64,000 bases of DNA from assembly GCF_042242105.1 (NCBI RefSeq), contig NC_092017.1, positions 19,368,432 to 19,432,431 of the forward strand, given 5' to 3'. Each line of letters starts with the position of its first letter. The stretch's first letter is position 1. This document shows, piece by piece, positions 1,393-63,180 of this stretch. A program made the position numbers and the translations under genes. Origin of the DNA: Pempheris klunzingeri (Eukaryota; Chordata; Actinopteri; Acropomatiformes; Pempheridae). The notes below the pieces were generated by a model. The model worked only from the letters and a program-made list of their open reading frames with translations, did not search any database and was not told where the DNA came from.

Positions 1393-3607
1393 TCAGTGTG
1401 GGCTCTGGCAGCAGCTGTCTGTACCATGCTCGTCCTCCAAGGGATGAAAACACATGTCCATTTTGCGTTGGAGGCGCTTCTTAAGGTGAAGTCGCCGCTC
1501 CACTAGCTTAGTGTTGTACTCCTGGGTTTTTAGCTTAGCATAGTACTCAGAGAACTTGTTAAAGAGGAAAGAGATTGGCATGCCGTTGAGGATGATACCA
1601 AATGAGATGCAGCCAAAGGCCACGATGCGGCCGAGGATAGTCACGGGAACCACATCCCCGTAGCCCACCGTAGAGATGCTGACCTAAGAGAGCAAAGTGA
1701 ACAGTCCCATGTTATTCGGTGTTCATTAATATTTTCTTCACTATAATATGATATGAATAAGAAAATGTCTCATCAGTGTCATCACTTTTTAGAAGAGATG
1801 CTGCTAAACTGGAGTAACTGGAAGGATTTGTCTGTTTCCATTACAACTAGGTTGCCACTCCCATCTAAACCCACAAAACCAAATTGGGCATTTACATGCG
1901 CTGAAGCATGCAGCTACACATTTCAAATGGCCGTTTTCTTTTTTTCCTTTGTTGACCCAATAGACTAACAGACTATTATGAAACAACATTTCAGATTCAT
2001 GTAGCTGGTTTTGATTTGTTTTTCAGAGGGAACAGCAGGATTTACTAGCAAACAGCCACCAGTAATAAACATACAAACTGGATTGTTTAATGCTGTTTCC
2101 TTCTTCATTAGAGAAAAAAAACATGGGCAGCCTTTTAAAATACAGAAAAGTTGAGTTTAGTGGCATTCAGAGATACTTTATTATGCTGGTTTTTTTATAT
2201 CCTTTGTGGTAGTATTGCTCAATGTCATATGTGTTTTCTAAGGCAGGTGTGCACTAAAGGTAGAAAAGGTGATGTGGATCAGGATCACATTTGAGGTCTA
2301 GAAGCGGGGGAATGACCTGGGTCAATTATTCAGTTACTGATACTCACCGCAGCCCACCACCAGGCGTATGGGATACTAGTGACAGGAGATCCCTCAGTTT
2401 CCCTCTCGGCTGAATGAAGGAGTGCAGAGAAAGTGAAGATTCCCATGGCAATGAAGAGGAGAATGCAACAGGCCTGCTGGTAACACTGACGCAGAGTGAA
2501 CCCAAACGCTCTCATGCCGGTGGAGTGTCTAGCCAGCTTCAAAATCCTAAAGATCCGCAGCAGCTTGACGACCTTAAGGACGTGGCTGATCTTGCTGACC
2601 TGAGCCATGGCCCTGAGGTCTTCCTGTGCGTTCACATCCTCCGCGTCAGATAAGGCTTCAAAGATGATCTGGACAAAATAAGGCATGACTGCCACCATGT
2701 CCACAAAGTTGAGGCCACTCTTCAAAAACATTACAATGTTTGGAGTGGTAGCAAGGCGAATTAAATACTCAAAGGCAAAAAACACAATGGTGATGATCTC
2801 CACCCATTCCATGTGCGTTTTGCCGTTTATTGTATACGTTCGAAGATCCTCCACAGTGTTGAGAGCCATTGCGACGATGGAGAAGAGCACAAAAATGTTG
2901 GAGAGCACACTGAAGGACTTCGCTAGAGTTGAGGAGTACGGATCCTCCACAATCTTCCACAGAGTCTTCCGCTTTTCCCCAAAGATCATGTCCTTGAAAC
3001 ATGTGTCATCATACTTCACCTCAATCTCAGCCATCAGCTCCCTATCCACCTTCAGGTTGTCCTTCACCTCCTCGACCCTCTCCTCAAACATCAACCAGCA
3101 GCAGACTTGGGTGTCCTTCAGGCTCAGCCCCCAGTATGCAATCTCCTCCTCGAAGTTGATGGGGCACATTTCCCGTATGACAAACAGCACTCCACTTTTG
3201 TAGAAATGGAAGATGTGGTGGAAGAAGGAAGGGTCACGGTCGAAGAAGTACTCATTCTTGCGTACAGAGTAGTCGTCACACAGTGTGAGCAGTTTTGCTC
3301 TGTCCCTGCAGAAGGCCAAAGAGCCTATCCGGGTGTTGGGATATTTAATGGCACACTGTTTGGGGATATGAAACACTTTCCCCCCAACATTAACGTCGAT
3401 GGTCTGTTGCCATTCTGGTCTGTCCTCTGCTTTGGGGCAGTCTGCCTTTATGCCCGGACAGTCGAGAGTCTCCAGAGATGTCCATGCTTTGACCTTTTTG
3501 TCCTGAGAAAATGGGAATGTTTTGTTGTCTTCCACACCCTGCGAGAGACAGTTGATAGTTGAGCGGCGGCTTTGCAATCTCTGCAGTTGAGCACTCTGTG
3601 AAGCCAT
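1393..3607 (-). CDS. kcnv2: Kv8.2 modulatory voltage-gated potassium channel subunit (KCNV2)
   Basis: Two coding exons, 2348-3607 (420 codons) and 1393-1683 (96 codons plus stop), join in phase 0 to give 516 aa; human KCNV2 is about 545 aa. Seen in order: an N-terminal T1 tetramerisation domain (about residues 68-170, with NVGGK and FFDRDP), S1-S3, an S4 with regularly spaced basic residues ([15 protein letters not shown]), the pore segment, the GYGD selectivity filter just after the splice junction, and S6. S6 carries [12 protein letters not shown] and lacks the PxP hinge of conducting Kv channels, as in electrically silent subunits. The S4-S5 region and the IILNGMPIS stretch match KCNV2 rather than KCNV1, KCNG or KCNS. 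Known of the family: it is silent alone, assembles with Kv2 subunits and shapes the photoreceptor current. Fish can have kcnv2a and kcnv2b; I cannot tell which this is. The start is the first ATG of a long open exon. Confidence 0.93.
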
Positions 3608-4384
3608 AGAAACTGCAGTTCAAGGCAGGAAGCCGATGAAACAGAAGAAGAAAAAAAGCATAACAGAAAACTTTGGTCCTGCAGGAACTAATATCTCAGT
3701 GAATAGCAGCTCTTCCTGTTTTTCTGACTCGTTGTGGCTGAGCTTCTAGTCCAGAGAGTCGTGGGGGAGAGGAAGAGATTCTCCTCTCTGACTGTCACTG
3801 TGAGGACAACACACATAGGCATCTGATTCAGACACAGAGATCAAGGGCAAGCAGCTGGGATGCCATCCATTTAATCTCATTGGTGCTTTTCCAAGTTTCC
3901 TTAAGCAGTTGTAAATATAGGGGGAGGCAGGATTAGTAAACAAAGTTAATTTAAGGATTTTGAACTGATGAGACAAAGGGCAAACTGAGGCCTTATGTTG
4001 AGTTCACTGATTTCTTCTTATTCCGCTCTTGAATTACCGTTCGTTATCATCCTCTTTCATGTCCTCATAATAGTTATTATAAGAAAGTACTTTTGCTTTT
4101 ACTAAAGGACAAGTATGAACTGCAGGTGTACAGGTGTAGAATATGCTTGCAAAGAGAAAAAATTTGACACTTGCTTTGAGGTAATTTGGTTTTAAATCCG
4201 CAAAGGATAATTTATTTGGAATAATTAAATATCATATATCTGTAACTCAAAATAAGGCAGATGTTGGATGTTAGGTTCAACCATGTGCCATGATTGGCCA
4301 GATGTCAGAGATTATTTGGTTATGATGCTGCTCATGTGGGGATTCTTGAATCCTTACTTTTGAATTCCTGTCTTTCTTAAAGAG

Positions 4385-8714: not shown

Positions 8715-8757
8715 TCATTCACCGTCCAAGTCCAGCTTAAGCAGAGTTTCCTGGCAG
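8715..8757 (-). CDS. cd320: terminal coding exon of the LDLR/CD320-like receptor
   Basis: An acceptor (polypyrimidine, then CAG) at 8758-8759 opens a 43-nt coding piece. It completes a serine codon and reads [13 protein letters not shown] then TGA. It joins in frame to the exon at 11083-11233 if a GC donor (AAG|GCAAGAG) is used there. The exon is GC-rich compared with its surroundings. The ETLL motif 12 residues from the end recalls the KESLL motif near the C terminus of human CD320. If this exon is not used, the previous exon reads through to a TAA at 11046-11048 and adds a low-complexity tail. Confidence 0.55.
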
Positions 8758-11700
8758 CTGAGAAACACACGGCTTAGTTGACCTACTGCATCGCCATAAG
8801 CCTTTAACCTGACGAGAGCTGGTTAGGGTGCGTTTATGTGGGATGCTACCGGAGTGCTTTTTAAGAAAAACAGAGACATTTTAATCACAAGAAGCCAGAA
8901 AACACTAGTAACAGTAAACACAGTTTTAACAGTGAACTTCACTGCAAATAAACAACATCAAAAATATTCTTAAAAAATGAAGCTTAAAATTTTCACAGAA
9001 ATGTGTAAAAGTGCAGCCTACAGAACATCAGTTCCTGGCAATCTTCCCATGATGTTTTAATTTCAGGTTCTGGCTTTTAAGAATGTGTGTTTTGTCATGG
9101 AAAAGTGTCCATCTGGCTGCATTTTTTCCACCATAAAAATTCCAATTAAATTATTCCATTTGAGGAAGAAAAGGGACATTTGTGTGCAGTGTAACCAAAC
9201 CTGGATACAAAACAAACTGAACACAATTTAGTGCAGGAGGTGGTGCGACAGATCTATCGTTTGGATTTTTGTGGAGCTCAGGATCAGGTGAAGTTCATAC
9301 CAAATTAAGTGAGGTGATGTTATGTTTGTAACATGTTTTACTGTTGTAGCTGTAGCTTTGGGTGGACATTATATGAAATTGTCCTCTAATTTACACACAA
9401 ACTCAAATAGAGCTTCTCCTTAATGAGGCTGTTGAACGGATTTTGTGCAACGGCCACTTACAGTAAGCTGTTCTCATTCCTCTATTGATCTACTGAACTC
9501 TCTCAGCATTCAGCACAGAAACCTTTTATCTAGCATCTCATGAAAACATTTAGGTGAACATGCTGAAACTGCTCTGCTGTATTTCTATGTTGATAAAAGG
9601 TTATCGGGCTAAAACAAACAGTTTAGCATGTCAGCTTGCATATCATAAACTAAGGAAGTGAGCACAGTATAAATACTATACCTGCATATACACTAGTTAG
9701 GGATATTCGACTTTCAGGTGAGATTTATGGAAAATGTAAAAAGTGAATGCTACAGTGATATTATATCATGAAAGTAGTGCATTTAAGGAGAAGCATGCAA
9801 TGGTAATTTCTTCATCTTAAACAATTTATTTGAAGAAAATCTAACAGTGGTGGGTATACCACAACAAAAAATTTCAATGTCTCAATAAATTGGGATGTGG
9901 CCAAAGGACGTCCACTCCTCTCCTTTCTGTGACTCTTCCAGTCTCTATCTCTGTTACAACCTCCTGATGACACTCTGTGACCCTCTAAGCTCAGTGAACA
10001 CTTCCGTCTGAGGACTTCCTGTTTGAAGCCTCCAGTGTTGAGGTGCTGCTGATCAACTGTTAGGTGTCGCCTTGGTCTCATGATGTCAGAATGTGAACAG
10101 CATGATGAGGAGGACTGTTTAAATACCAATTCTAATTGAACCAGGAAATGTATTGGTCGATTCATGGATCAAACCTGTTGTGAATGTTGCTGTTAAGCTT
10201 CTTGTTAGAGAACAGCAACTTGTGCAAAAAGTACTGAAACACTGAACAGTTGGACATGTGCATTCAAAGGTTTAGAGAAGGTCACATTAAGTTCACCTGG
10301 AAAGGTTAGAATGCATTTTAGGTTCATCTTGAAATTTCACCCGAAAGCCGAATATCCCTAACTTTTTGAGAAGTCCACTATTTCTGATGTGTTTTGGTGG
10401 TGATTTTTGATCATTGTTGCTTTATTAAAAGTGATGCTACACTTGTCACAAATAGTCCATGTGTTTTTAAACTCTGTGAAGCAGAGCAATACATTAGATG
10501 TGCGTTCCTCTACATATCTCCGTATTGTGCTATAATCACCCACACTTTATCAGATCAATTAGATGTTAAGGATATAAGTCCCTCTCGTCACTAATCCCCA
10601 TTTCCACACATTCAATTTCACTTGAAAATACACCACTTTACTGATGCTGAACATTCAAAAACTCGGCTCATCTCCTTCGTCAGAGTTCTGCTGGTTTGGT
10701 TTGGCCAGATGTGATTCACAGTGCAGACAAGCAACCCGACAGCCGACATAAATTGTGATTCAAATGTGGCTATAACATCACTTACCAACTTACTCAACCC
10801 CCCTTTAAACCAAAACTGTTCCAACTTTGATAGAAAATTGTGTTTTTTCTTCTCATCGTTAAATGTGCCCTTTTCCTGTGTACGAGTTTTCCGCATCATA
10901 AACACAACCTCCAAAATAACCACGGGGTACAAAATCAACACCTCTTTAAATCAGTTATATTTATATATATCTAGTGTACATATGTGCTGCTGGATGAATG
11001 GCATCTCCTCTCTAAAGGTGAATGAGGGCGGCTGTGTCTGCTTTTTTATGCATGTGTGCGTGTGTGTACAAACATCTCTTGCCTTGGTGAGACATGGGTT
11101 TGGGGCCCCTGGGTGATGAGCGGGTCCTGTGACTCTTTGAGGGAGACGCTCTGCTCAGTGAGAGACCTGGAAGGCCTGAACTCTTCTCTGCACCACCACA
11201 GAGCCATTCCCACCAGCAGCACACTGAGAAAGGCTGGGAAACACACACAAACACAGCGGTGAAACACGGTCAGGAGCCTCTGCAGACATGACAAAGTATC
11301 AAGACGTTGACGTCAACTTCCTCTATGTCTCCCTCCTCACCTCCTCTGAGGACATGAGGACGGGCGGACACACAGACACACACACACACACACACACAGA
11401 CACACACGGCTGTTATGACCAACTAAAACTGCAATACAAAGAGGAAACAACATAAATATGTATAATACACTTAATTTAAATAATGCTTCTGTAGACACTC
11501 AAATAAACTGCATGAGAAACTATGCAAGTAAATATACATTTGGCTAAAAACCAAGGAAGTGATAAAAAAAAATGTTCGTCTGTGGACAGGCTTGTAAAAT
11601 GGTTTGAAAATAAAGTGCTGCTACACATTGCTCTTGTCTTTTTTTTTCCTTAAGCAATCAAGCATATGTTTATAGAGATTACTGAATAAACTATATATGG

Positions 11701-14700
11701 AAATAGTTGCTCAAAAGCTCTTTAGCCGCATGAATCCATAGAGACAAACGCTGCCTGTTGCACGTTTATGACTCAGCAGGGTGTGACCACGTCGACCTCA
11801 GCGCAAAGTGACATCACATTAACTATAACCTCCGTGTTAGAGAAGAAAATTTCAAAGTCATGTTGGGAAGCACCTGGGAAACTAAAACTACTACAAAAAA
11901 CTAAAAATTATAACAATATTTATCTTTTACAGCCAATATTTGATCATGATTACATAACACAAAAAACTGCTTAACCATCTTATTTCACTGACCTGGCAGA
12001 AAAGTACCTACTTTTAACAGTAGTGTGATCATGTGCAACTACTTTGCTTTGTGGTGAGGAGTTATTTCTTACTGATAAGAGAGAGGATTCCAGCAAATGT
12101 ATGATCAGATAATGTTGACACAGGAACTGTGCGAGAAATAGCAGGAATTTCTTCAGATGCGTTTCGTCCCGTTTCTGGATGAGCGCAGCTGAACTCCAGA
12201 CTCTCCGGCTGCAGGTCAACAACACACTCGCGCTCACACACCGTCCTGGTGCGTCCGCATACAGATGGCCCTAAGAACCAGGCGAACGTATGATCAGTTT
12301 TGACAGACCGAAGGTACATGTTTAAAGTATTCAACCGGTCATACCAATTGGTTGAAGAGCAGGCTGAATGATGACCACACCACCGGGCGAGGTGGCGTTT
12401 GACAGCAGTACTTGGAGGTTGCTGCCGTTGTGTTTGTTGGCTCGGCAGATGGAGCGCGTCACTTCATCACTCCAGAAGACAAAACCCTGTGGGAGAATGG
12501 ACAGACTTAGCAGAGCTGTTCAAAGGCATTTATTATCCGTTGAAGGCTGAGTTAAAGATTTTAGTTACATTCAGCACTTCTCAACAGAGTGTCTGTGGTT
12601 GAGACATAATGTAACTAATGTGTGTGTTCCTTTCTAAGCCGATTTTTCAAGTGTGTGTGTTTTTTTTCTTTTCTTTGAGAAGTGATTCAGTAAGTTCTTA
12701 AAAATGACTTCTGTATTAAGTATGAAGTCAGTAGGGCAAAGCTTCTCGTTACTGCCTCTCCCACAATGCACTGGATGTCAGGCATGGGTATCCCTGTCTC
12801 TATTCCATCGTGGAGCTGTAACGTGGTGGTTTTACCTCAAACACAGCCAGTCCGAAGGGCCGGTCCAGATAACCGTTAGACTCAACCACTGTTTTACGGT
12901 GATGACCCTCTAGATCTACTCTAGAGATGCTTCTCTTTCCCTGGTCCAACCAGTACAGCAGCTGGCGAGGCATGTCTAAAGGAAAAAAAATAACCACGTG
13001 GAAACACAACCCACTCCATGAGCAGCAACATTGCAACTCCAAACACAAGAAGGAAATTTACACAGTTCCTGATTTTAAAGGAAAGCTTGTGGTTTTTCTT
13101 CTGCATTTTGTTTTTCATATTTAAATCCACATAGATTATAACATAGTGTACACAAGAACACAGGTTTTGCATAAATAAAGAGAAACGGTGGTTTTCTGTT
13201 GAACTATGTAAATACCCAGAGAGAGAGCCACGGGGTGATGTATTGAGGACGTGACCAGAGCTGTCCTATCCCGACCGTCCAAGCTAGCCCTCTCGATCTT
13301 TGCGGAGCCGCCACACTGAGCCCAGAAGAGAAGCCTGAGAAAACAGAAGCAGCTGGTAACTGCTGGAAACTGAGATTCTTAATTTATCCTGGTTTTGAAA
13401 ATTCCTATTTTCCTGTCTAATTTTCACAAGTTCCTATTAATTTAAACTGTCCTCTTATGTGTATTTTTCCTTCATTCTATGAAATATCCCATAGGTAAGT
13501 CTTCTTATTATCAGTCTTCTTATTTCTAATTTTAGGAAGCAGAACCTCTGTGCTTAAAAAAAACAGGTCGACTGGGCTTGTTTTTCTCCAAATTGACAAA
13601 CAAATGGACAAATGAATTAATGAGCTGAAACACAATCAAACATAAACCCATGTAAATGGGCCTAAATGTATTTTAGTTCAGGCCAGCAATATTAAGATCA
13701 AACTAGAAAAATTGCAGTGTGAATGCAAGCCATCTGGTGGCTCAAACGTCACTAGTGAGCTGCTGCTCATCAGCTGTGACACACCTGTGAAAATCCAGGT
13801 TTTGGCTAAAAACAGTAACTGTCACAGCTTTAAGGGAAGAACAGGATCTGCTGAACATGTACATGTAGTTTGAGGTCTCTAACTTGTGAAATGAGAGAGC
13901 GTTCTGAGTCACATCACTGCGTCGGCAAGGATTTTTCCTACGTTTTGATGCATAAATTGTGACTGTGGGTGAAGCGGTTCGGCCGTGAGAGCGAGTTAAA
14001 GACAAAAGCTTCAGGCGATTTTTCCGCTCCTCTCCGCTCTAGCGAGCCCACATACACACTCATTATAAAATCTGAGAAGGAGGGAAAACGGCATGAAACT
14101 AAAACTGCGATATTGTAAAAAACGTACGGTTATAAAAGATATCCAAAAGCTGAGTTATGTGGTAACAACTGAAGGTCTTGTGACCTGTTTAAAAGTTGAG
14201 TGGAGTCTGTGGCTGAAAGTATGAGGAAGCTATAACCTTTAAAAGTGGAGGAAGTTGAAGAGGATTTGAAATTTCCACCCAATTTTAAAAGAAAAGTTTA
14301 AATATTTTAAAAAGGTAGAATTGTGAAAAGTCATAGCACCCAAGAGACCGACGAGCTGAACATTTTGATGTTGGAACGGTTTCTGTGGCTCAAAGTGTGA
14401 AGCAGTTGAAACGCTGCAATGAAGAATAAAACAGGATAACAATAGTGTGAATGCTGCAACAGCATTCACACTAATCACAGCCCTCTCATCCTCAACACTG
14501 ACTGATGTGATGCATGAAGGAACCAAACTCATGTATTAATGTATGTATTTCTATGTACCACAGTGCCCCTCCCTGAGCAAATACACGATCAAAAGGGTCC
14601 TGTGTTGTGTTAGCTGGGTAAAAGCTTTTAAATGCTTTGACTAATAACTAATTTGAAGATTATGATGCGACAATGCGTTATCACAGCTAGAGCCTGGGCC

Positions 14701-17700
14701 CTCCTACCCTTGGAGAGGATCCACAGCCACTGCAGAAGGTTTGTCCAGTCCGGTGATGAGCGGCCGCTGAGCCGAGCCGTCCAACAGGCCAACGTTAACA
14801 GAGCCGCTCTCCATACTGGTCCAGTATAGGAGCTGGTGGATCCAGTCCACAGCCAGGCCGGACACTGAACTTTGAACTTTCAGCACCACTTGTGGCTTCC
14901 CATCCATGAGGACCCTGACAAAAATCCAGGGGAAGGAAAGGAACACATAATCAAAAAACAAACATGAGGTGTATTAAAAGTTAAAAATCAGTCCAAATCC
15001 TGACCGTGACAACGCATGGACACATCTCTCAGTGGGCTCCTTCACCTGTGCGCATTATGACGGTAAACTCAGAAACCTTTGTAACAAAATGCCACTCTGT
15101 ATCTACAGTTTACATGTTTTTAGCCATGCCAGTAGCATGGCTCTAGGGATGGCAATGTTTGACGGTCAGTCCACCGCTTTGCTCCAGACTGGAATATCTG
15201 ATCAATTACAGCAGTGTTTTTCAACCTTTTTTGAGCCACGGCACAATTTTTACATTAAAAACAAAAAAATACATTTTATTGTTGGAGCCTTGTCAAAGGA
15301 GAATTTCTGTCACCGTCTGGGGCAGACAATAAAGTCTATCTATTCCATTCTATTCTAAAGGGTACAATAAAATCTTTGTAATGGCTCTTCAAACAGAGCA
15401 GACGATCACATAGATACTATATCTGATATATTTCTACACTATAATAGAAAGGTAGAAGAGGGAAATGTTTGATAATAATCAAACCTTCCTTTACTCCATT
15501 CTTTGGTTTGTGATCAAATAAAACTTTAAGCGATATAGAAATATATATATATATATATAGAAATATATAGCTATATAGAAATTAACTGTGTTGGTGACCT
15601 TCTAATAATTATCAGTAGCTCCTTGGTGGTATTGTAATGTGTTCAAAAGAACATGTGTGTGCTGCCATCAGCAGCTCCACTCTGTTACCTGTATACAGAG
15701 CCTCGTCCTTGCCGGGCCCAGTACAGTGTCTGGTTAGAGGCCAAGGCCGCCACCGGCCCTGGTCCTGGTAAATGAGCAGCTGCTTCCTTGTACTCGGAGC
15801 CAGTGATGCTTGTCCATCGCATCCCTTTAGAAGATGTGAAGACCAAGTGAGCCTCATCCCCTGGAAGGACACAAACACCGGTGAAATTCACAATCCTGTG
15901 TGCTTAAATTAAGAGCCACACATTATATATGGCGTGTGGCGATGAGGCACATTGTTTCAAAGGGTGTAACAAGTAGATGAAATATCTGGAATTTTATTTC
16001 TCTAATTTACTTTAAATTGAAAAAAAAACGAAAGCTCATCAGATTTTATAAACACAACAACTGAATTCAGTATGAGTAAAAGTGATGTCCTGAGGGAGAC
16101 ATACAAAATGTAAGCTTTGTGGTTTGGCATCTGTATCAAAATAAAAATAAAAGAAAAAAACCCAGCCCAAGAATAATTATTCGCCAACACAAAGAAATAA
16201 TACACCTCTGAGGAGTCGTTTCCAATAAGTGTGTCTCTGCTGGACTGATGGATGTAGGCTAATATGTTTGTACAAAAACACTCAGTCGAGTCAACATTTA
16301 TTAAGGTGGAGCCAACATGAGCGTCTTTAGAATTCCTGACTGAGTGTACCTGACCAAACAGAAGCCTGAACAAACCCGCCAAAGGTCACTGATAGCATAC
16401 ATATATTTTATGCAAACACGTATTCTACTGATGTCTTGTGCAAATACCTTGACCACATGTATTTTTAGTATGGCCAGCACCACAAAAACCCCCTCACTAT
16501 GTGCTCCAGTCACTGCCTCTCTAGAGGCTCATCAGATCTCACCATATATTCTATTATGACATTAATGCAGGTACATGATTAAAACATTATACTTATTCTT
16601 TGTTGGCAGCTAAACATAGATATATGTATGAGTAGAAGAAATGGTAGAAAAACACAATTCAATGGAGAAAATGAAGCAGATGATTTCTATTTGTGTCTGA
16701 GGCAGAGTATTTTTGTAATGCATGTTTAAAGATGGTGGCTTTATGTTTCACCACTATTGTGCAGGGTCTCCATCACACTGCTCTGTTGGGTTCACAGCAG
16801 GCTGAAATTAGTTTGTTAGTTTGTTTGCTACTAATTATTATGCAATTAACGGTTTTATTGAACAAATTTCCTGGCTTGTGAGATATAGGACAACAGTTTG
16901 AAATAGCAGGCAAATGTTCATTTACAGGCCAAAGTTGGCAATATGGCTGAAATTAATTTGATATGAATTATATACAATAAAAATATAGAACTATCACCAA
17001 GCCCTACAAATACAAACAAAATACAAGCAGGAAAGGAAAATCTTAAACCCTTACGCTGTCAGCGGCAATCATTCGTCTCTCACCTTTGGCCTTGCACTCT
17101 CTGCTTGCTCGGTTCATCTGGTAGCCCTCGTGGCAGCTGCAGGTGAGGCTGCCGTTCATGTGAACACACAGCTGGTCACACACGTCGCTCTCCAGGCACG
17201 CGCTGACCTCTAGATGAAAGAAGGAACGAACACAGCAAAGGAAAAGTGTTAAACATAGTATACATGGAAGGAAGACCAGTTCCCATTACGTAAAAGAAAT
17301 GGCTTGCATAAGTGAAATTCTGCAAATGTGATTCAAGTTTTACGACAGTCTCCTCAAAAAAAACAAACTACCCCCTTAAAAACCAATCCTTCAATCCTCT
17401 GTCAGACATGTTAGCGTCATTTTGTGAGATGGATCAAGACAAATCTTTATAAATGGTGATGTAAAACTAAGTTTAGCAGCTGTCAGCAGACATCGAGCTG
17501 CTCGGTGCCCACTCACCCTCACACTGGATGTCCCCGACCAGCTTCATGTCGTCGGGGCAGTCGCAGAGGAAGCCCATCGGCTGGTCCACACACCGATGAG
17601 AGCAGCCTCCATTATTGACCAGGCACTCGTTCTGATCTGCACAAACACACATAACATCAGTGGTTTCATATAATGAAGTGCGCAGCTACTTGCCAGCATG

Positions 17701-20700
17701 ATAAATGTGATGCCGCGCACCAAGCGTTGAGGCCGAGAAATCCATAGTGTGTGAGAAAAAAGAAATATGGTTGTCGTTACAGGGTCCATGAATGGGGACT
17801 GTTATTTTCACATTCCTGATGAGCCAATTAATAACAACACAGCACCATTTGGGTCTACAGCTGTACTTTTGTTTTTATATGGAGCATTTTTATTCACTCG
17901 CATAGCAACACCTCTTGTTTTTTTTAATCATATGATGTAGAAACTGTGTGTCCTATCCCTTTAACTCTGAGTTTTAGATGTTGTGAGAAGCTGGTGTTCA
18001 TTCGGCTAAGACGATCAAGGACTTTGGTATGCTGTGAGCCAACTCCCCAAATGTCAGTTTCACAACTGCGCTCCAAGAGTCGCCTGTGCAGTCCTCTGAG
18101 ATGGACCCTCACTGTGCTTAATTAAAACAGCATGGTGTAATGGGGGATTCATAAGCAAATTCATGGTGGAACGACAGTGTGTGTAATTTGTTAAATGATT
18201 TATAAACACACACTGCCAGAGTTTATTTTGTCCTCAGGGATGAGCAACAATTTGTGCCGATGGAGGACAATTAAAAAGATACACGTACATTTGATTTGCC
18301 TAACAGCACTCACTTATTAGAGAACAGTCACTAGTTTACAAAGTTACTCATAACGCTGAATTAGCCTTGTAGCCATGAGTTGTTTGGTTGATTAATCATT
18401 TAGTCTATAAAATGTAAAGAGTGAAAAATGTCCATCCCAATTTCTCCTGAAAATATTCAGTTTGCAATGATGTAAAAACAGAAGAAAAACTAATTATTCC
18501 CATGAAGAAGCGGCACAAACAGAACTGTTGGCATGTTTTTATCATTTTGCCTGCGACAATTCCATTATCACAATAGTTTGTGATCACTTTTTCCTGTCGA
18601 CTGACTTTTATTCAATTAATCATTGCAGCTCTGGAACAGTTACATACCAAGACTGATGTGTTACTTTCTCACTATTGAACCCACTGAGGACTTTTGGCTT
18701 TTATAAGCTCAATCAAAATAAGTATACACTTTACACTTTTTAATTATTTACTTTCTGTAATTGTGTATGCTGCTTCAACTTTTGTATTGTATTCTGGCAA
18801 AATCCTTTTCTTCGGGATTAATAAAGTCGATCTCATCTCATCTTAAACTGTCTTTAGAAAACAACCTTTCCTCCACCCACAGGAATCAGTAATAAGCTGA
18901 TAAAGATTTATGCTGCTGTTTTTTATTGCCACTGACGGAGGACAAAGATTAGATAACGACGAGTATCATGATGTAGGAAGCCTTTCTGTCAACAAACAAC
19001 AAAAGAACTGTGCAGTGTGGAACAGTGCTATACTGCCCTCTGCTGTGTGTGGTTACTTAACATCTTGTTCCAAAATCAAAGGCATTAATAGGCTGCTGTT
19101 ACAGCCTTCAATCGCACAAGATTTTGGATCCATGGCCTTTAAAACCTCAGGGGTGTGTATCAGAGGGTCAAACTGCATCTAAAACACTCTCCTTCATGAC
19201 GTCAGAGCTCGCTGTTCAACATTTTTGCCTTGTACGTGTTGTACAAACTAGTTTTCTTCCCGTGCTGCCTTTAGTTAGGTTGAGTGATGAGATGAGAGGC
19301 TTGCGGTCAGAGCTCAAGTTTGTCCCGTAGCTGTGAGATCAGATATTTTTGTGATTTTAGTTTTCTCGTAGACGTGAAGCCGTCTCACTCACCACAGTTG
19401 TCCTCGTCGCTGCCATCTGAGCAGTCTGGGAAGTGGTCGCACCTCCAGGGCTGGCGGATGCACTGCCCGTCTCCACACTGAAACTCTGACGCTCCACAGG
19501 CGGGAGCCGTCTGCAGGCGCGTTGGAGACAAACCGCAAAACTCGTCCCGTCCATCTTTGCAGTCAGTTTTCCCATCACACAGCTTGTCTTTGGGCAGGCA
19601 GACGTCAGACGGCCCGCAGGACCAGAGGCCAGCGGAGGTGCAGCGGATTTCTGTGGAGTGTTTCAGTTAATAATAAACCTCTGGATGAAGTTTCAGAGCA
19701 ACACAAGGTTAATAATTTTTTTCCCCCAACTGAGTTCACATTAAAAGAAAAATGAGCAAAAACTTTGGTGGGGGAAAACACAAGTTTTCATTAAAAAAAA
19801 ACCAGCTGGTTCATGGGTCATTCCAGTTAGTTAGTAAGTAATCCTGGTTTAGATCACATCCAACCAGATCTTCAGCTTTCAGTCTTAATATCCTGAAGAG
19901 TGAGTGGTCAATAACATTTATTATAGTGAGAAGAATTTTAGATCACAGTGTGGTTTTATGTTTTAAAACCAATTTACTTTATCACATTGGAGCAAAAATT
20001 ACTGGATTACAACATCCAATATTGTTACGAAGCAGACTAAAATTGCATTGGTATGCGTTGAATTGCCGTGTGATGAAAAGACAACAGATCATTTCATTCA
20101 CATTCATCCATTTGCTCTTTTTTTTTTTTTTTTTAAACCGTCTCTCAGTAAAAAACCAGACTGCTGCTGAGCTCTGCATTTCTGAGTGGGAGAAAGTAAA
20201 TATTGTTCACCTTCTACATTTTCCTGGCCGCCATTCAAACCACTGACTTTCAGGTCTTGTGGCTTCAACCTCGAAGCAGCACTGCCAATATTCATACCAT
20301 CAGAGATTACTCACATCTGCAGTGTTCATGTTTAATGTCTGCAATCCTTTCAGAATACTTTCTCCTGCAGGGGTTTTTCTTTGCAGACGTTCTGCAGCTT
20401 GTGGTTCACGCTGAACAGCAAATCCCTCTGGAATTCAATATTAAAGTCTCTAATGATTTAACGGGATTATAAGGCTAAAATCTGCAATGGTATTTTCCCA
20501 CAAAGTGTGCAGAAATTTAAAAAGTAAAAAAAGGTAGATCAGTTTACTGTAGGCTCATTATGGAATTAAGATTTTTTTTTTTTTTTAAATCGGCATACAC
20601 AGAACAAGATTTATTAACATTAGTTTAAAATCAAGGTTTTGTGAGGACGTGTTTTGTGCTTTAATGTAAAAAACAGAACAACAGGTCTGGACACAACTTT

Positions 20701-22370
20701 AATTCAAAGTCGGCTTAATAAGCTAAAATTCAAGCAATCTACTGTATGCTGAACGAGTGTAGGTAAAAGGGCACATGCTGTCTGACATGCTAATTAAACA
20801 CGGAGATGGCCTGAATCAGTAAGAACTGTTCTTACAGGACTTCAGAGTCACTTTGTCAGACTTCTTGGTGTCTTTTTTCAGTGTGTCAGTCTTCCATTTA
20901 CGTTAATTACTGTCTAAACAACCATCCCATGTTTCTATATCAATCCATCTATCTTTCTCTGATGCTTAAAATCTTTGTTTGCCACCTTTTTATTAATTTA
21001 AAACTGAGACTACCCATTCATATATTGTCATTCTCCAGTTTAGTATCTTAACTTTTTTTTAAAAACGGCTTTATTTTACCCATCTTAAAAGATGTTTAGG
21101 TCTTTTTCTCTTGTATCTCACACTGAATCGCTTTGCTGTAGAAAAATAAACACACCTCTCCTCATCTCAAAGTACTTGATTATTCCCCCAAACTGTAAAG
21201 AAATGCTGGTTTTGATTTTATCATTTTGATTGTGAAGCCCAAACCAGTGTGTGTGTGTGTGAGAGAGAGAGTACAGTTTGGTTGTTTTTTTTGGATCCTG
21301 CCCTCACCACAGTGGTGTTCATCTGATCCATCCTCACAGTCAGCGTGACCGTTACATTCACTCAGTCTCGGGATGCACGACCCATTGCTACACCTGAAGT
21401 CCAGCTGCTCATGGCAGCCGTGACCTGCAGCCCCTGAAACACATGCAGAGTGTCAGTCAGTAATAATGGACATAATATACAAACAATATTAAACCAAACC
21501 AAAAAAAAAAGCCACACAAGGAAAGTAAATGATGATCCAAAACCTGCCATTTACTACAGCTTTCACAATTCCACATGCTTTATTTCGTAAACTACATGAT
21601 AAGATAATGTTATGTGGTGACATAAAGGCTTTAGGATGAGACTGTTGTTCCATAAAAGGACAAAATAACATTCTCTCTACAGTTCTGCTCTTTCCACACG
21701 TCCATCACATCACATAAAACCACAAATATAAATGCATAAAAATGAATTCCATTCCTGTGAAAGCAAATTGTTTGTCTGTGAGCGAACTGAATAATTGGAT
21801 ACAGAATAATTCGATTCATTTTCTGTTCAGTGTCATTTCGAACATTGCTCTCAGAGATAATGATCACATGAGGACTCTTACAGAGTTAAACTGGCTATGC
21901 TGCATATAGATGTTTTTGCAGTATTTGAGCACTCGTACTTAGAGTGGCTGTAATTTTTAGATTTATTCTTTAACTAATATGCAGCAGTTCACTTCAAAGA
22001 AGAAGCTGATGGTATCCGGAATGCTCCTTTATTTTTTCATCGCTCGAGCTTTCTAGTGATTTCGTTCATACTGTTGACTATATTTTCATCTTCTTCTGCA
22101 ACAACTTGGCTTCCTGAAACGTTGCGTTTGTTTAAAACCTCACAACTTCACTGTGGTTCGTAAGTAACATTGAACTTCATTCAAACTGACAGTCGGTCTT
22201 GCTCGACTGCAAACTCTCAGTCCGCTCCTCCGTTTTTAAACAAGACAAAGCCCAAACCACGCAGCTCTCTCACTCCACACACATGCACGCGTATTTTCCA
22301 GCACCTCACCCCAAATATGAGCGCTGGTTAGAGGGACGATCAGGAGAAATAAACCTCCAAGGTGTCCCAT
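8715..22370 (-). CDS. cd320: LDL-receptor-family transmembrane receptor, probable fish CD320 (transcobalamin receptor) ortholog
   Basis: Thirteen exons were traced: 22310-22370, 21308-21433, 19393-19650, 17517-17636, 17084-17209, 15689-15860, 14708-14914, 13216-13334, 12836-12975, 12345-12486, 12073-12270, 11083-11233 and 8715-8757. All junctions are in phase, giving about 620 aa. Order: signal peptide, three LDLa repeats, two EGF repeats, five visible Y/F-W propeller motifs (LYWA, LYWT, LFWA, LYWL, VFWS), a four-cysteine degenerate EGF, a transmembrane helix (about [20 protein letters not shown]) and a short tail. There is no NPxY endocytosis motif. VLDLR and LDLR have seven or eight LDLa repeats and NPxY, so this is not a plain ortholog of either. 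CD320 is inferred from position directly downstream of ndufa7 on the same strand, the three-unit LDLa layout with a weak middle repeat, and the tail. If so, it would take up transcobalamin-B12 at the cell surface. The alternative is a divergent LDLR/VLDLR paralog. The family is certain; the ortholog is moderately supported. Confidence 0.72.
9695..10363. mobile_element. MITE-like non-autonomous DNA transposon with 32-bp terminal inverted repeats
   Basis: The left end AGTTAGGGATATTCGACTTT and the right end pair as inverted repeats with about three mismatches over 32 bp. The element is about 669 bp. It sits in the last intron of the receptor gene. A minus-strand open frame at 9812-10165 ends in a stretch with RSGRPLA, faintly like the DNA-binding region of Tc1-type transposases. 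It lacks a catalytic domain. No clear target-site duplication was found. Confidence 0.65.
11046..11233 (-). CDS. transmembrane and juxtamembrane exon of the LDLR/CD320-like receptor (read-through form)
   Basis: The exon opens after CCCAG and encodes the last part of the membrane helix, then the basic/aromatic stop-transfer residues [12 protein letters not shown] Ser/Thr/Gln-rich tail follows, with a possible LITQ segment but no FDNPVY. With no splice at 11083 the frame ends at 11046. No usable GT donor is visible, so either the exon is terminal or the intron is GC-AG. Confidence 0.6.
11368..11408 (+). repeat. (CA)n microsatellite
   Basis: Near-perfect CA dinucleotide tract with GA interruptions, in the intron between receptor exons 11 and 12. 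Confidence 0.9.
15212..15358 (+). repeat. interspersed repeat fragment
   Basis: It starts 'cagtgtttttcaacctttt' and ends in 'ataaagtctatctattcc' and 'attctattc' units. Both phrases are typical of dispersed fish elements: a hAT-like start and a LINE-like tail. It lies in the intron between receptor exons 6 and 7. A 108-codon open frame spans it and is not credible as a gene. Confidence 0.45.
15541..15560 (+). repeat. (AT)n microsatellite
   Basis: Short AT dinucleotide run flanked by 'gaaatatat' duplicates, intronic in the receptor gene. Confidence 0.85.
17084..17636 (-). other. two EGF-like exons of the receptor
   Basis: Exon 17517-17636 encodes an EGF repeat with [14 protein letters not shown], the classic EGF-A form of the LDLR family. 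Exon 17084-17209 encodes the second, beginning [20 protein letters not shown]. Both exons are symmetrical phase 1-1, as in LDLR, which supports common descent. Human CD320 lacks these modules. Confidence 0.9.
18365..18640. repeat. interspersed repeat of the 'AATCGATTAATCG' family
   Basis: It begins 'gattaatcatttagtctat' and ends 'aattaatcattgcagctct', with central phrases 'tcagtttgcaatgatgtaa' and 'aagaagcggcacaaa' typical of this fish family. It lies in the receptor intron between the LDLa and EGF exons. Confidence 0.55.
18775..18845 (+). repeat. LINE-type 3' tail
   Basis: The segment reads through 'cttcgggattaataaag' and ends in short 'atctc' repeats. This is the usual tail of fish non-LTR element remnants. 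It is intronic. Confidence 0.5.
19393..21433 (-). other. LDLa-repeat exons of the receptor
   Basis: Exon 21308-21433 encodes repeat 1 with all six Cys and the calcium cluster [11 protein letters not shown]. Exon 19393-19650 encodes two repeats in one exon. Repeat 2 has six Cys but a weak start (WSCGPSDVC) and [10 protein letters not shown]. Repeat 3 is canonical, with [11 protein letters not shown]. The [13 protein letters not shown] start of repeat 3 resembles LDLR repeat 5, the key lipoprotein-binding unit. No further LDLa exon was found in the neighbouring introns. Confidence 0.9.
21247..21271 (+). repeat. (GT)n(GA)n microsatellite
   Basis: A GT run passes directly into a GA run, about 40 bp from the first LDLa exon of the receptor. 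Confidence 0.85.
22310..22370 (-). CDS. signal-peptide exon of the LDLR/CD320-like receptor
   Basis: ATG at 22370 opens [20 protein letters not shown]. It has a short N region and a hydrophobic core, with likely cleavage after TSA. The donor GGG|GTGAGG leaves phase 1, matching the LDLa exon. The upstream sequence to about 22445 is GC-rich with several CpGs and no TATA box, as expected for the promoter and 5'UTR. Confidence 0.85.
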
Positions 22371-23576: not shown

Positions 23577-26053
23577 TCAGAGGTACGGCTGGTCTGTGGA
23601 GAGCACCGGCTCTTTATAAACAGCACCCGGGGTCACTGGTGGCTTTTGGACTTCAGCAACTTGACTATAAGAAATCACACAAAAACAAAAAAAAAAAAAC
23701 ACAGGTGTAAATCAGGAGTAAATAGGTGTCATATAATCTTGTTTTATTCTTCACACAGCAAAAAGTTACCGCTCACATTAGAAGATGTCAGATCAATACA
23801 TCTTAGCATTGAAGCATGACAGCACACACACTGTGTGTGTTGGGAAAAAAATGAGCAGAAGCCTCTGATAAGCATTCACAGACAGGCAGAAGTGTTTAAA
23901 TGGCGGCAATGGCGTCTTACTGCTGCCACACTTATTCCAGCTATGAACATAACTGCATTTATATAATCTGATGAAGACTGTTTACGTGGGTCCCACCTCA
24001 CTGCCTTCATTGTGTTGGTTTACTGCAGCTCAGAACAATGTTTTCTGTCATCAGTCTGTCATCTCTGCAAATTCAACACTTCCTGTGCTGGTTTTTCACA
24101 GTAAAGTTCCAGCAAAGACAAATCTACATCTACATTTGTATATTTTTCAGAATTTTCAAATAGTTGATTATTTTCAAACAATTATGTGCTGCTTATCAGA
24201 GGACAGATAAAATGTTTTCCTAGCAACCAGAACCCATTAGGTCACTGTTATTTAAAAAATGAATATGTGACCCAAAGGTATTGATTGAACCATTTACCTC
24301 CCAGCGGTAATAGCCTTCTGTGAAGACATAACAACTGTGGCAGGTACCGACTCTCTGCGTCCATCTCTTGTGAAATAGTAGTTGCTGGCATACTTGTGGC
24401 TTGGGCCTACTGGCAGTTTGGGAGGTGGCTGCGTCCTAAAGAGAGAGCATTGTAAACAGAAACTAAACAGTCAACCAAAACTGTGTCGTGTAAAACACTC
24501 TGTTTGGGAATAAACAATTTAGTTAACAGAAATAAATATAAAAACTAAACTTTGGAAAAAATGAAAATTCACTTAAACAATTGTGCTTTCACCAATCGTT
24601 GTGTTTGTATTGTAAGAAATAATCCTGAACTTCTTTAATCTGCCCCAGGCAAATTCCCCCATAATATCATATAAAAGAACACCAAAACTAATAAAAACTC
24701 CACCAAAAGTAAACATCTTGAAACGATAAAACCTAAACTGACTACACCACAAACTACACTGGAGACCAAATGAAAATAAACTGGATTGAAAACAAAAATA
24801 AAAAATGAAATAAAAACTATAATAACTCAGCAGCATCAGTACCTTCTCTAAAGCTGCATACAGATTTTGCACCTTAGCTTACTTTTTTTTTTTGCACTTG
24901 TGGGGCATGTTATTTCAGGTACTGGTGGAAAATATATCCATGATGGACAGTTTCAGTAACAGATACGTGATTTTGAGGTGCTTATTGCAGCATTTCCCTG
25001 CTCCGACACACCTGATTCAAATAATCCCCTTGTCATACAGATGCCTGATGATGACACATTCGTTTGAATCAGGAGTGCCAGAGCAGGGAAACAGCTAAGA
25101 CACACAGGCCAACGGGCCTGAAGGACCAGGAGCGGGAAATCCTGGCTTATTAGATGCCAAAACAGTGCACAGCGGGGTAAACGTATTGCTGGAAGTACTT
25201 GATTAGACTTACCACTTTAAAAAGGCACAAAAATGCCACTGACTAATCTACTTTTGGGTCACAAAAATGAGATCAAATTCAGTTTCAGGCCCCACAACAC
25301 CTTGGGATGACCTAACATGAGGTAGTGGCAAACAGGTGTATTTTCTTGTGGCAGTGCAGCGTCGTGTTTAAAGCACATCCCCTGGTTAGTTACCATCGTT
25401 CACCTGCAACAATTTGACTGTGTTACAGCTTTTAAACTGGTGAAGTTTAAAAAAAAGTGTGCCAGTTCCTGGTATATCAAGACGTCACATGAATATCACT
25501 AATAACTCATCACTAATAACTCACCAGTAATTACTAACCACTAATAACTCATCACTAGTTACTAACCACTAATAACTCATCACTAGTTACTAACCACTAG
25601 TTACTAACCACTAATAACTTGGCTGCAGCTGTTCCCAGAGACAAAAACAGTCTTCGGTACAGAGTGGAACAGTATTGTGGGGCGGCAGGTTAACGCCGGT
25701 GCACCAAGTCTTACCTCTTTGCGATCTCCCCATATCTCAGCTGCAGTTTGCTTTGCAGGTCATGCTGAAAAGGAAAAAATATATATTAATTATTATATAA
25801 TACTATTTTTTTTTTTTAAATCACGCTGTCAATACAGACCGGATGATTATCTTCTTGCTAGCTATCAAAAGCTAACCAGCTAAAATTGGAAACTTCTGCC
25901 TGTTTAGCAAGTTTATTACAAAAAATACACTTTAAATACGATTGTGTTTTCTTTCACATTAACTCCTGCCTCGGGTGTACAGCGTGTCCGTGTGTTTCTT
26001 ACCCCAGACAGTAAATTTCGTAGCCTCTGGATGATTTTGGTCGCAGTCGCCAT
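23577..26053 (-). CDS. ndufa7: NADH:ubiquinone oxidoreductase subunit A7 (complex I B14.5a)
   Basis: Four coding exons: 26003-26053, 25715-25764, 24298-24435 and 23577-23664. They join in phases 0, 2 and 2 and give 108 aa; human NDUFA7 is 113 aa. The start [17 protein letters not shown], the central [20 protein letters not shown] and the C-terminal STDQPYL match the family closely. It is an accessory subunit of mitochondrial complex I on the matrix side, and has no cleaved presequence here. The ATG at 26053 is chosen because it starts the conserved N terminus. The gene lies between mast3 and the receptor gene, all on the same strand. Confidence 0.97.
24992..25138. repeat. interspersed palindromic repeat, copy 2 of the 'TTTCCCTGCTC' family
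   Basis: Arms 'tttccctgctccgacacacc' and 'ccagagcagggaaa' flank a centre whose 'tgattcaaat' and 'tttgaatca' also pair, so the unit can fold into a long hairpin. The outer part reads 'aaggaccaggagcggg'. It matches 5717-5862 in reverse. It lies in ndufa7 intron 2. Confidence 0.55.
25496..25619 (+). repeat. minisatellite of 'actaataactcatc' / 'actagttactaacc' units
   Basis: About nine imperfect 14-bp units alternate between two variants over roughly 125 bp. It lies in ndufa7 intron 2. Confidence 0.85.

Positions 26054-30122: not shown

Positions 30123-63180
<33,058 letters not shown>

Follow-up and report, generated by a model that had tools for sequence, protein, structure and literature searches.

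A stretch of 64,000 nucleotides (nt) from the fish Pempheris klunzingeri (RefSeq assembly GCF_042242105.1, contig NC_092017.1, positions 19,368,432 to 19,432,431; hereafter the window) contains, at positions 11046-22370 of its minus strand, a gene encoding a divergent receptor of the LDLR core group, additional to five genes of that group found elsewhere in the same genome. The gene lies in the neighborhood of CD320, a receptor for transcobalamin, on both sides, because NDUFA7 is found upstream of it and a KCNV2-type channel gene downstream, and the KCNV2 duplicate KCNV2L is syntenic with CD320 in birds. We believe, with a probability of about 0.57, that this gene is the counterpart of CD320 by position, a product of the duplication of the VLDLR-KCNV2 block, and an endocytic receptor for transcobalamin-bound vitamin B12.

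The gene is composed of 12 minus-strand exons with GT..AG borders, which join in frame to give a protein of 618 amino acids. This reading frame is not due to chance, because ten inner exons are free of stop codons (an estimated probability of ~1e-13, modelled from the gene's own introns) and the GC content at third codon positions (GC3) is 0.62, compared to 0.376 for intron GC. The start codon and signal peptide are in E1 (22310..22370, 61 nt, phase 1 at its end), followed by the first LDLa module in E2 (21308..21433, 126 nt, phase 1-1), whose calcium loop (CNGHADC) is without its first acidic residue, and by E3 (19393..19650, 258 nt), which encodes both LDLa2, the weakest of the three by an LDLa hidden Markov model (HMM), and the canonical LDLa3 (WRCDHFPDC). 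EGF-A (E4, 17517..17636, 120 nt) and EGF-B (E5, 17084..17209, 126 nt) precede five propeller exons, namely E6 (15689..15860, 172 nt, phase 2 at its end), E7 (14708..14914, 207 nt, compared to 225-228 nt in the paralogs), E8 (13216..13334, 119 nt), E9 (12836..12975, 140 nt), and E10 (12345..12486, 142 nt). An EGF-C remnant, a short stalk, and the start of the membrane helix are encoded by E11 (12073..12270, 198 nt, donor ATCA/GTAAG), while E12 (11046..11233) carries the remainder of the helix, a cytoplasmic tail, and the stop codon. The original prediction, made from the letters of the window, had described 13 in-phase exons; the in-frame structure holds, but the number is 12, as E12 ends in its own stop at 11046 and no further exon is needed. 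The additional exon, which was thought to encode an ETLL tail motif shared with CD320 (8715..8770, minus strand), is unsupported and was dropped: it would need a donor within E12, where the in-phase donors were judged to be poor, and adding it left the CD320 tail score unchanged, with 73 rather than 22 of 2000 shuffles as good. An LDLa HMM identified no further LDLa exons among the 2188 six-frame stretches of the window. Its true matches were confined to E2 and E3, at E values of 1.2e-12 or better, and one chance-level match lay at 49788-49862 (E 0.037).

Within the predicted protein, Pfam recognizes three LDLa stretches (the best at residues 113-148), two EGF-type units (FXa_inhibition), and Ldl_recept_b, for which one stretch is significant alone, and residues 234-523 align with the LDLR propeller (1ijq) over its full length. 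The top hydrophobic stretch is at ~549-571 and spans the E11/E12 junction, and the short tail carries no NPxY, YxxPhi, or canonical dileucine signal, NPxY being absent from all 618 residues. All of these parts had been named in the original prediction, which also included a degenerate EGF; here the four cysteines of E11 do sit at the place of the LDLR EGF-C, and the exon is assigned as an EGF-C remnant from its position, as Pfam gives nothing for it up to E 10. The aspartate of the YWTD motif is gone in three of the five blade motifs compared (YWAR, YWTS, and FWAQ), and the receptor has a long end branch in our propeller trees (1.2 to 3.4 changes per site), both of which could be expected of a decaying gene heading for loss. 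Despite this branch, 12 of 12 exons are intact, their splice sites are canonical, and GC3 is high, and we consider decay to be very improbable.

By its architecture the gene belongs to the LDLR core, because its exon sizes from EGF-A to the end of the propeller (120, 126, 172, 207, 119, 140, and 142 nt) match those of five LDLR-core genes of the same fish. The genome (646 Mb, 439 contigs) was searched for relatives with the Ldl_recept_b profile, with 150 of 254 candidates scored and 10 regions chosen and read; clusters on contigs C1, C2, C5, C10, C11, C20, and C22 remained unread, and the five genes are those found rather than a census. They comprise two LDLR-type genes (C3 and C17), one VLDLR-type gene (C19), and two LRP8-type genes (C6 at 22.5 Mb, and C15), names assigned by comparison with human sequences (identities of 63 and 65%, 74%, and 70 and 66%, respectively), while the other five regions are, by their look, presumably nidogen-, LRP4-, or LRP5/6-like. 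Propeller exons of 172, 119, 140, and 142 nt were top-scoring in all five paralogs, and four of them also had the EGF exons (120-123 and 126-129 nt), the stretch of the C6 gene examined showing none. The paralog exon of 225-228 nt was picked by size in three of the five, where a shorter candidate outscored it against the receptor exon, and as the scan preset the receptor's phases and lengths within 33 nt, the paralog phases are consistent with this match rather than independent of it. At the protein level, the receptor is 33-37% identical to every LDLR, VLDLR, and LRP8 sequence compared, while these are 51-74% identical among themselves, and its identity to LRP2 propellers (31-37%) is hardly lower. 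Single-propeller matches in PDB were LRP8 (170 bits), VLDLR (158), LDLR (150-154), LRP4 (143), and LRP6 (141). Apart from this, contig C20 (~11.136-11.321 Mb) contains four tandem units of ~50 kb. Each unit carries an LDLR-family gene with many propellers, and many of their LDLa and LDLb match scores are identical in three or four units; this represents a recent amplification or an assembly artefact, with lrp13 or an LRP2-type gene as the candidates.

Both neighbors of the receptor gene are encoded on the same strand. Upstream is NDUFA7 (23580..26053, minus, 4 exons; compared with the human sequence), and beyond it a gene for a MAST-type kinase, with exons for DUF1908 and the kinase; downstream is a KCNV2-type (Kv8) potassium channel subunit gene (1396..3619, minus, at least two exons; Pfam BTB_2 and Ion_trans), which is a candidate KCNV2L. 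Human CD320 adjoins NDUFA7 at 19p13, and the location originally proposed for the gene, in the place of CD320 with NDUFA7 next door on the same strand, was borne out on the upstream side and is joined by the channel gene on the other. KCNV2L has been described as a duplicate of KCNV2 that is found on chicken chromosome 28, syntenic with ADMP and CD320, and likewise in finch, while in frog it is syntenic with RPS28 and KANK3 and in platypus with ADMP; it is reportedly not found in other mammals and so lost from most of them (Lovell 2013, PMC3711925). The bird evidence is a synteny of CD320 and KCNV2L, not an exact gene order (PMC3711925). Judging from these neighbors, the fish receptor would fill the CD320 slot.

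The same arrangement is found at another location in this genome. On C19, vldlr is followed on its own strand by a channel gene that is 40-54% identical in pieces to the channel gene of the window and has nearly the same motif as the last exon of the latter. Most of the protein of the window channel gene is encoded in one exon, compared to five or more exon pieces for the kcnv2 beside vldlr. The genes that come after vldlr in eel, zebrafish, and tilapia are kcnv2a and pum3 (PMC9935665), and a gar gene list gives the same order (PMC8042750). Because the vldlr-kcnv2 pair on C19 shares its layout with the pair in the window, VLDLR-KCNV2 and the receptor (or CD320) with KCNV2L look like copies of a single ancient block, and the receptor gene most likely arose from the duplicate of the VLDLR-KCNV2 block. 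In a propeller tree of 12 sequences, three of them human, with LG+C20 and LRP2 included, the receptor propeller grouped with VLDLR (97/100) on a long branch. The approximately unbiased (AU) test under LG+C20 did not reject a position outside LDLR, VLDLR, and LRP8 (p 0.43), with LDLR (0.18), or with LRP8 (0.13). With the propeller only, LG+C20 gave 100/100 for the grouping with VLDLR, but LRP2 fell beside LRP8, so that this tree is poorly rooted. The residues common to the receptor and one family only number seven for VLDLR, three for LDLR, and two for LRP8. Contrary to the expected attraction, the long receptor branch was not drawn to the long LRP2 branches under C20, which we do not count as proof.

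Comparison with CD320 itself revealed similarities in the LDLa triplet and in the tail. By a small LDLa HMM built from 27 fish modules outside the window, the three modules score 47.0, 24.9, and 53.7 bits in the receptor and 52.7, 8.0, and 43.0 in CD320, such that both are strong-weak-strong triplets; the weak middle LDLa that the original prediction saw in both was recovered by this small HMM, although a weak middle unit is a one-in-three coincidence. The CD320 ectodomain is collinear with LDLa1-3 of the receptor, as it is with other LDLa triplets. The score of 8.0 for the middle unit of CD320 was reached by 1 of 1000 shuffles with fixed cysteines, while an HMM built from LDLR-type EGFs (14 units, 8 from fish and 6 from human) scored it at -1.0, with 538 of 1000 shuffles as high. 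This disfavors an EGF reading, and by the small HMM and its shuffles the unit would be a degenerate LDLa. The local score between the juxtamembrane tails of the receptor and CD320 is 31, with 22 of 2000 shuffles as good, compared to 16 and 13 for the CD320 tail against those of LDLR and VLDLR (all human tails), a weak similarity by sequence. As the original prediction would have it, no separate short cd320 was found, either in the window or among nine stretches outside the propeller-gene clusters, read from the 150 of 532 candidates scored in a genome LDLa profile search that recovered the receptor's LDLa3 and did not cover low-scoring modules. These nine we take to be perlecan, corin, matriptase, LRP10, LDLRAD3, DGCR2, SCO-spondin (two), and SORL1.

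On the ligand side, the LDLR-A2 module of CD320 alone binds transcobalamin at ~10 nM, with Asp153 and Asp157 clasping its Lys114 and Asp75 and Asp79 of A1 clasping Lys105, and haptocorrin is reported to have no equivalents of these lysines (PMC4947154). A cobalamin-carrier profile search of the whole fish genome, in which six of six candidates were scored, gave a single locus at E 0.001 (C7:4958572-4960642, 5 matches within 2.1 kb), where exons for the alpha and beta domains can be seen by look. The encoded carrier is closest to transcobalamin II in PDB (95-109 bits vs 52 for TC-1 and 34 for intrinsic factor), and with positions assigned by motif spacing it has Lys at Lys105 and Lys114 of human transcobalamin (TC) and Glu at Glu118. 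The retention of both docking lysines suggests that some LDLa receptor reads them. In LDLa3 of the receptor described here, the acidic pair (WRC-DHFPD-C) and the Trp are retained and Glu136 is matched by a Glu, and LDLa2 retains both acidic loop residues.

From this sequence pattern, the protein would be a one-pass endocytic receptor whose most likely ligand is transcobalamin-B12. LDLa3 is the likely grip, and its calcium loop would hold a lysine in the alpha domain of transcobalamin in the manner of LDLR-A2 of CD320, with LDLa2 or LDLa1 as a possible helper. LDLR lets its ligand go once the propeller residues His562 and His586 acquire a charge. In the receptor both of these positions, encoded by E9, are Arg, while they are His in five of five paralogs of the same fish and in three of three human paralogs. 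Because of this replacement an LDLR-type acid switch in the receptor is unlikely, and the ligand may be released at low pH via the loss of calcium together with a loop histidine; such histidines occur in two of the three receptor LDLa modules and in CD320 A2, compared to none of 17 LDLR/VLDLR modules of the same fish. Alternatively, the fixed Arg charges might turn the propeller into a permanent clamp. Taken at the level of sequence, B12 uptake by this receptor is plausible.

There are several results that weigh against regarding the gene as the counterpart of CD320, as a duplicate of the VLDLR block, or as a B12 receptor. Five of 11 LDLR/VLDLR triplets of the same fish match CD320 better (203-222) than the receptor triplet does (194), namely LA1-3 (203), LA3-5 (222), and LA4-6 (203) of the C3 gene and LA2-4 (212) and LA3-5 (207) of the C17 gene, the linkers of the compared triplets being artificial. 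Single CD320 modules A1 and A2 likewise have better partners than LDLa1 and LDLa3 of the receptor, and we set aside LDLa modules as orthology markers, as they do not discriminate and lean against the relationship. The receptor tail also scores 24 against each of the LDLR and VLDLR tails (human), compared to 31 with CD320, and CD320 itself has no propeller. For the middle unit of CD320 alone, Pfam finds neither LDLa nor EGF even at E 10, and the literature calls it EGF-like (PMC4947154). Under LG+G4 the receptor propeller falls outside LDLR, VLDLR, and LRP8 (90/95), in which case the receptor would predate the proposed block duplication. Its placement therefore hinges on the substitution model, with VLDLR (97/100) or outside (90/95), and a firm grouping within VLDLR, LDLR, or LRP8, which would have spoken against the original prediction, did not occur. 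In LDLa1, Asn replaces the first Asp of the acidic necklace, loop histidines are carried by LRP2 modules too and are thus not special to CD320, and the positions of Trp115, Arg122, and His104 are occupied by Lys, Asp, and Glu, respectively, in the fish carrier.

Orthology with CD320 is accordingly not proven by sequence, and the original idea of CD320 as a trimmed LDLR-family member is favored by the neighborhood and by the weak tail similarity but not by the LDLa triplets (222 for the best vs 194). We do not file the gene as CD320, because its LDLa modules are not those closest to CD320 and its ectodomain is not a short one. The receptor could have been a separate LDLR-core gene, once a neighbor of CD320 and later lost in tetrapods, or a local duplication could have given rise to CD320 beside it; the unsettled propeller placement and the fact that the CD320 modules are not closest to those of the receptor agree with this. 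However, the search of the 64-kb window yielded no further gene with LDLa exons, a single gene in the slot is more parsimonious, and the two tails share the similarity described above, and we regard this as unlikely. The non-conserved carrier residues bear on a different explanation, in which the protein is an LDLR-type lipoprotein or yolk receptor with unrelated ligands that does not bind transcobalamin and occupies the CD320 position by descent only. The ligands of LDLR, VLDLR, and LRP8 are mostly lipoproteins and yolk proteins. Lr8 and Lrp13 are examples from fishes (PMC9935665), and several of the TC residues that contact CD320 are not kept in fish TC. This is at odds with the presence of only three LDLa modules, one of them a canonical binder, with the absence of NPxY and of the switch histidines, and with the two docking lysines that the carrier keeps, and we think it unlikely, if the more serious of the competing explanations.

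A longer history can be proposed tentatively, at somewhat less than even odds: CD320 would stand beside LDLR, VLDLR, and LRP8 as a fourth sister from whole-genome duplication, with VLDLR as its direct sister. The acid switch would have been lost first (His562/His586 to Arg/Arg), leaving the propeller as dead weight or as a permanent clamp on one LDLa module at neutral pH (LDLa2, whose acidic loop is intact) that leaves LDLa3 free for transcobalamin, after which land vertebrates would have dropped the EGFs and propeller to give CD320/Tva, with fish keeping the full form for B12. CD320 may thus be a shortened LDLR-family member, and the long form, which could be overlooked by a search for short LDLa proteins, may serve B12 uptake in fish. 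If true, CD320 would gain a family history as a trimmed VLDLR sister, its EGF-like middle unit would be explained as an LDLa remnant, and the fish gene would provide a natural experiment on the role of the LDLR propeller after loss of the acid switch. A 2024 review states that zebrafish have no CD320 homolog and may use another B12 receptor (PMC10778862), and a candidate in the CD320 neighborhood makes this question testable. We found no paper on a fish CD320 gene in the open-licence PMC literature searched, and genome databases may already label such genes.

Several other features lie around the receptor and its neighbors. A Tc1/mariner-type transposase (35512-36599, minus; two overlapping open frames, with DDE_3 in the first) sits between exons assigned to the MAST-type kinase gene, of which the exon at 30126-31229 is only presumed to belong to it. 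On C6, ~14-17 kb before the start of the window, a kinase piece (2742-4313, plus strand, of the stretch L044) scores 119-122 bits against JAK2 and 113-115 against JAK3, and is a JAK2/JAK3-type gene for which the two are not distinguishable. A glycosyltransferase gene (2424-3620, minus, of the stretch L043; together with the JAK-type gene ~6-17 kb before the window start) has what we take to be the look of a B3GNT. The parallel of JAK1/LRP8, JAK2/VLDLR, TYK2/LDLR, and JAK3/CD320, a possible link between the four JAK and the four LDLR-core genes, comes from human map positions and was not used as evidence.

Among known systems, CD320 and avian Tva share with the receptor an LDLa triplet with a weak middle unit, a short tail without NPxY (human tail), and, in human, NDUFA7 as a neighbor. 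In chicken and finch they also share KCNV2L (PMC3711925). They differ in that the receptor has an EGF pair and a propeller and is 618 rather than 282 amino acids long, and in that their LDLa sequences are not mutual best matches; the human CD320 gene has five coding exons (PMC12193483). Lrp13 is likewise an LDLR-family receptor of fish, and kcnv2b is named in the legend of Fig. 2 in PMC9935665 as one of the genes shown near lr8 and lrp13, but eel Lrp13 has 1234 amino acids and 7+1 LDLa modules and lies beside rchy1 (PMC9935665), and is therefore not the receptor gene described here. VLDLR, LDLR, and LRP8 differ from the receptor in their number of LDLa modules, with three in the receptor, seven in LDLR, as counted for both LDLR-type genes of this fish, and eight in VLDLR (PMC10339998), and the receptor is set apart by the absence of NPxY, of His562 and His586, and of the YWTD Asp in three of five motifs, as well as by its EGF-C remnant. 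It shares with them the order of EGF, EGF, propeller, (EGF), and membrane helix and the exon sizes, and with VLDLR in particular a KCNV2-type gene as the next one downstream, encoded on the same strand, and the propeller affinity seen under LG+C20 (97/100).

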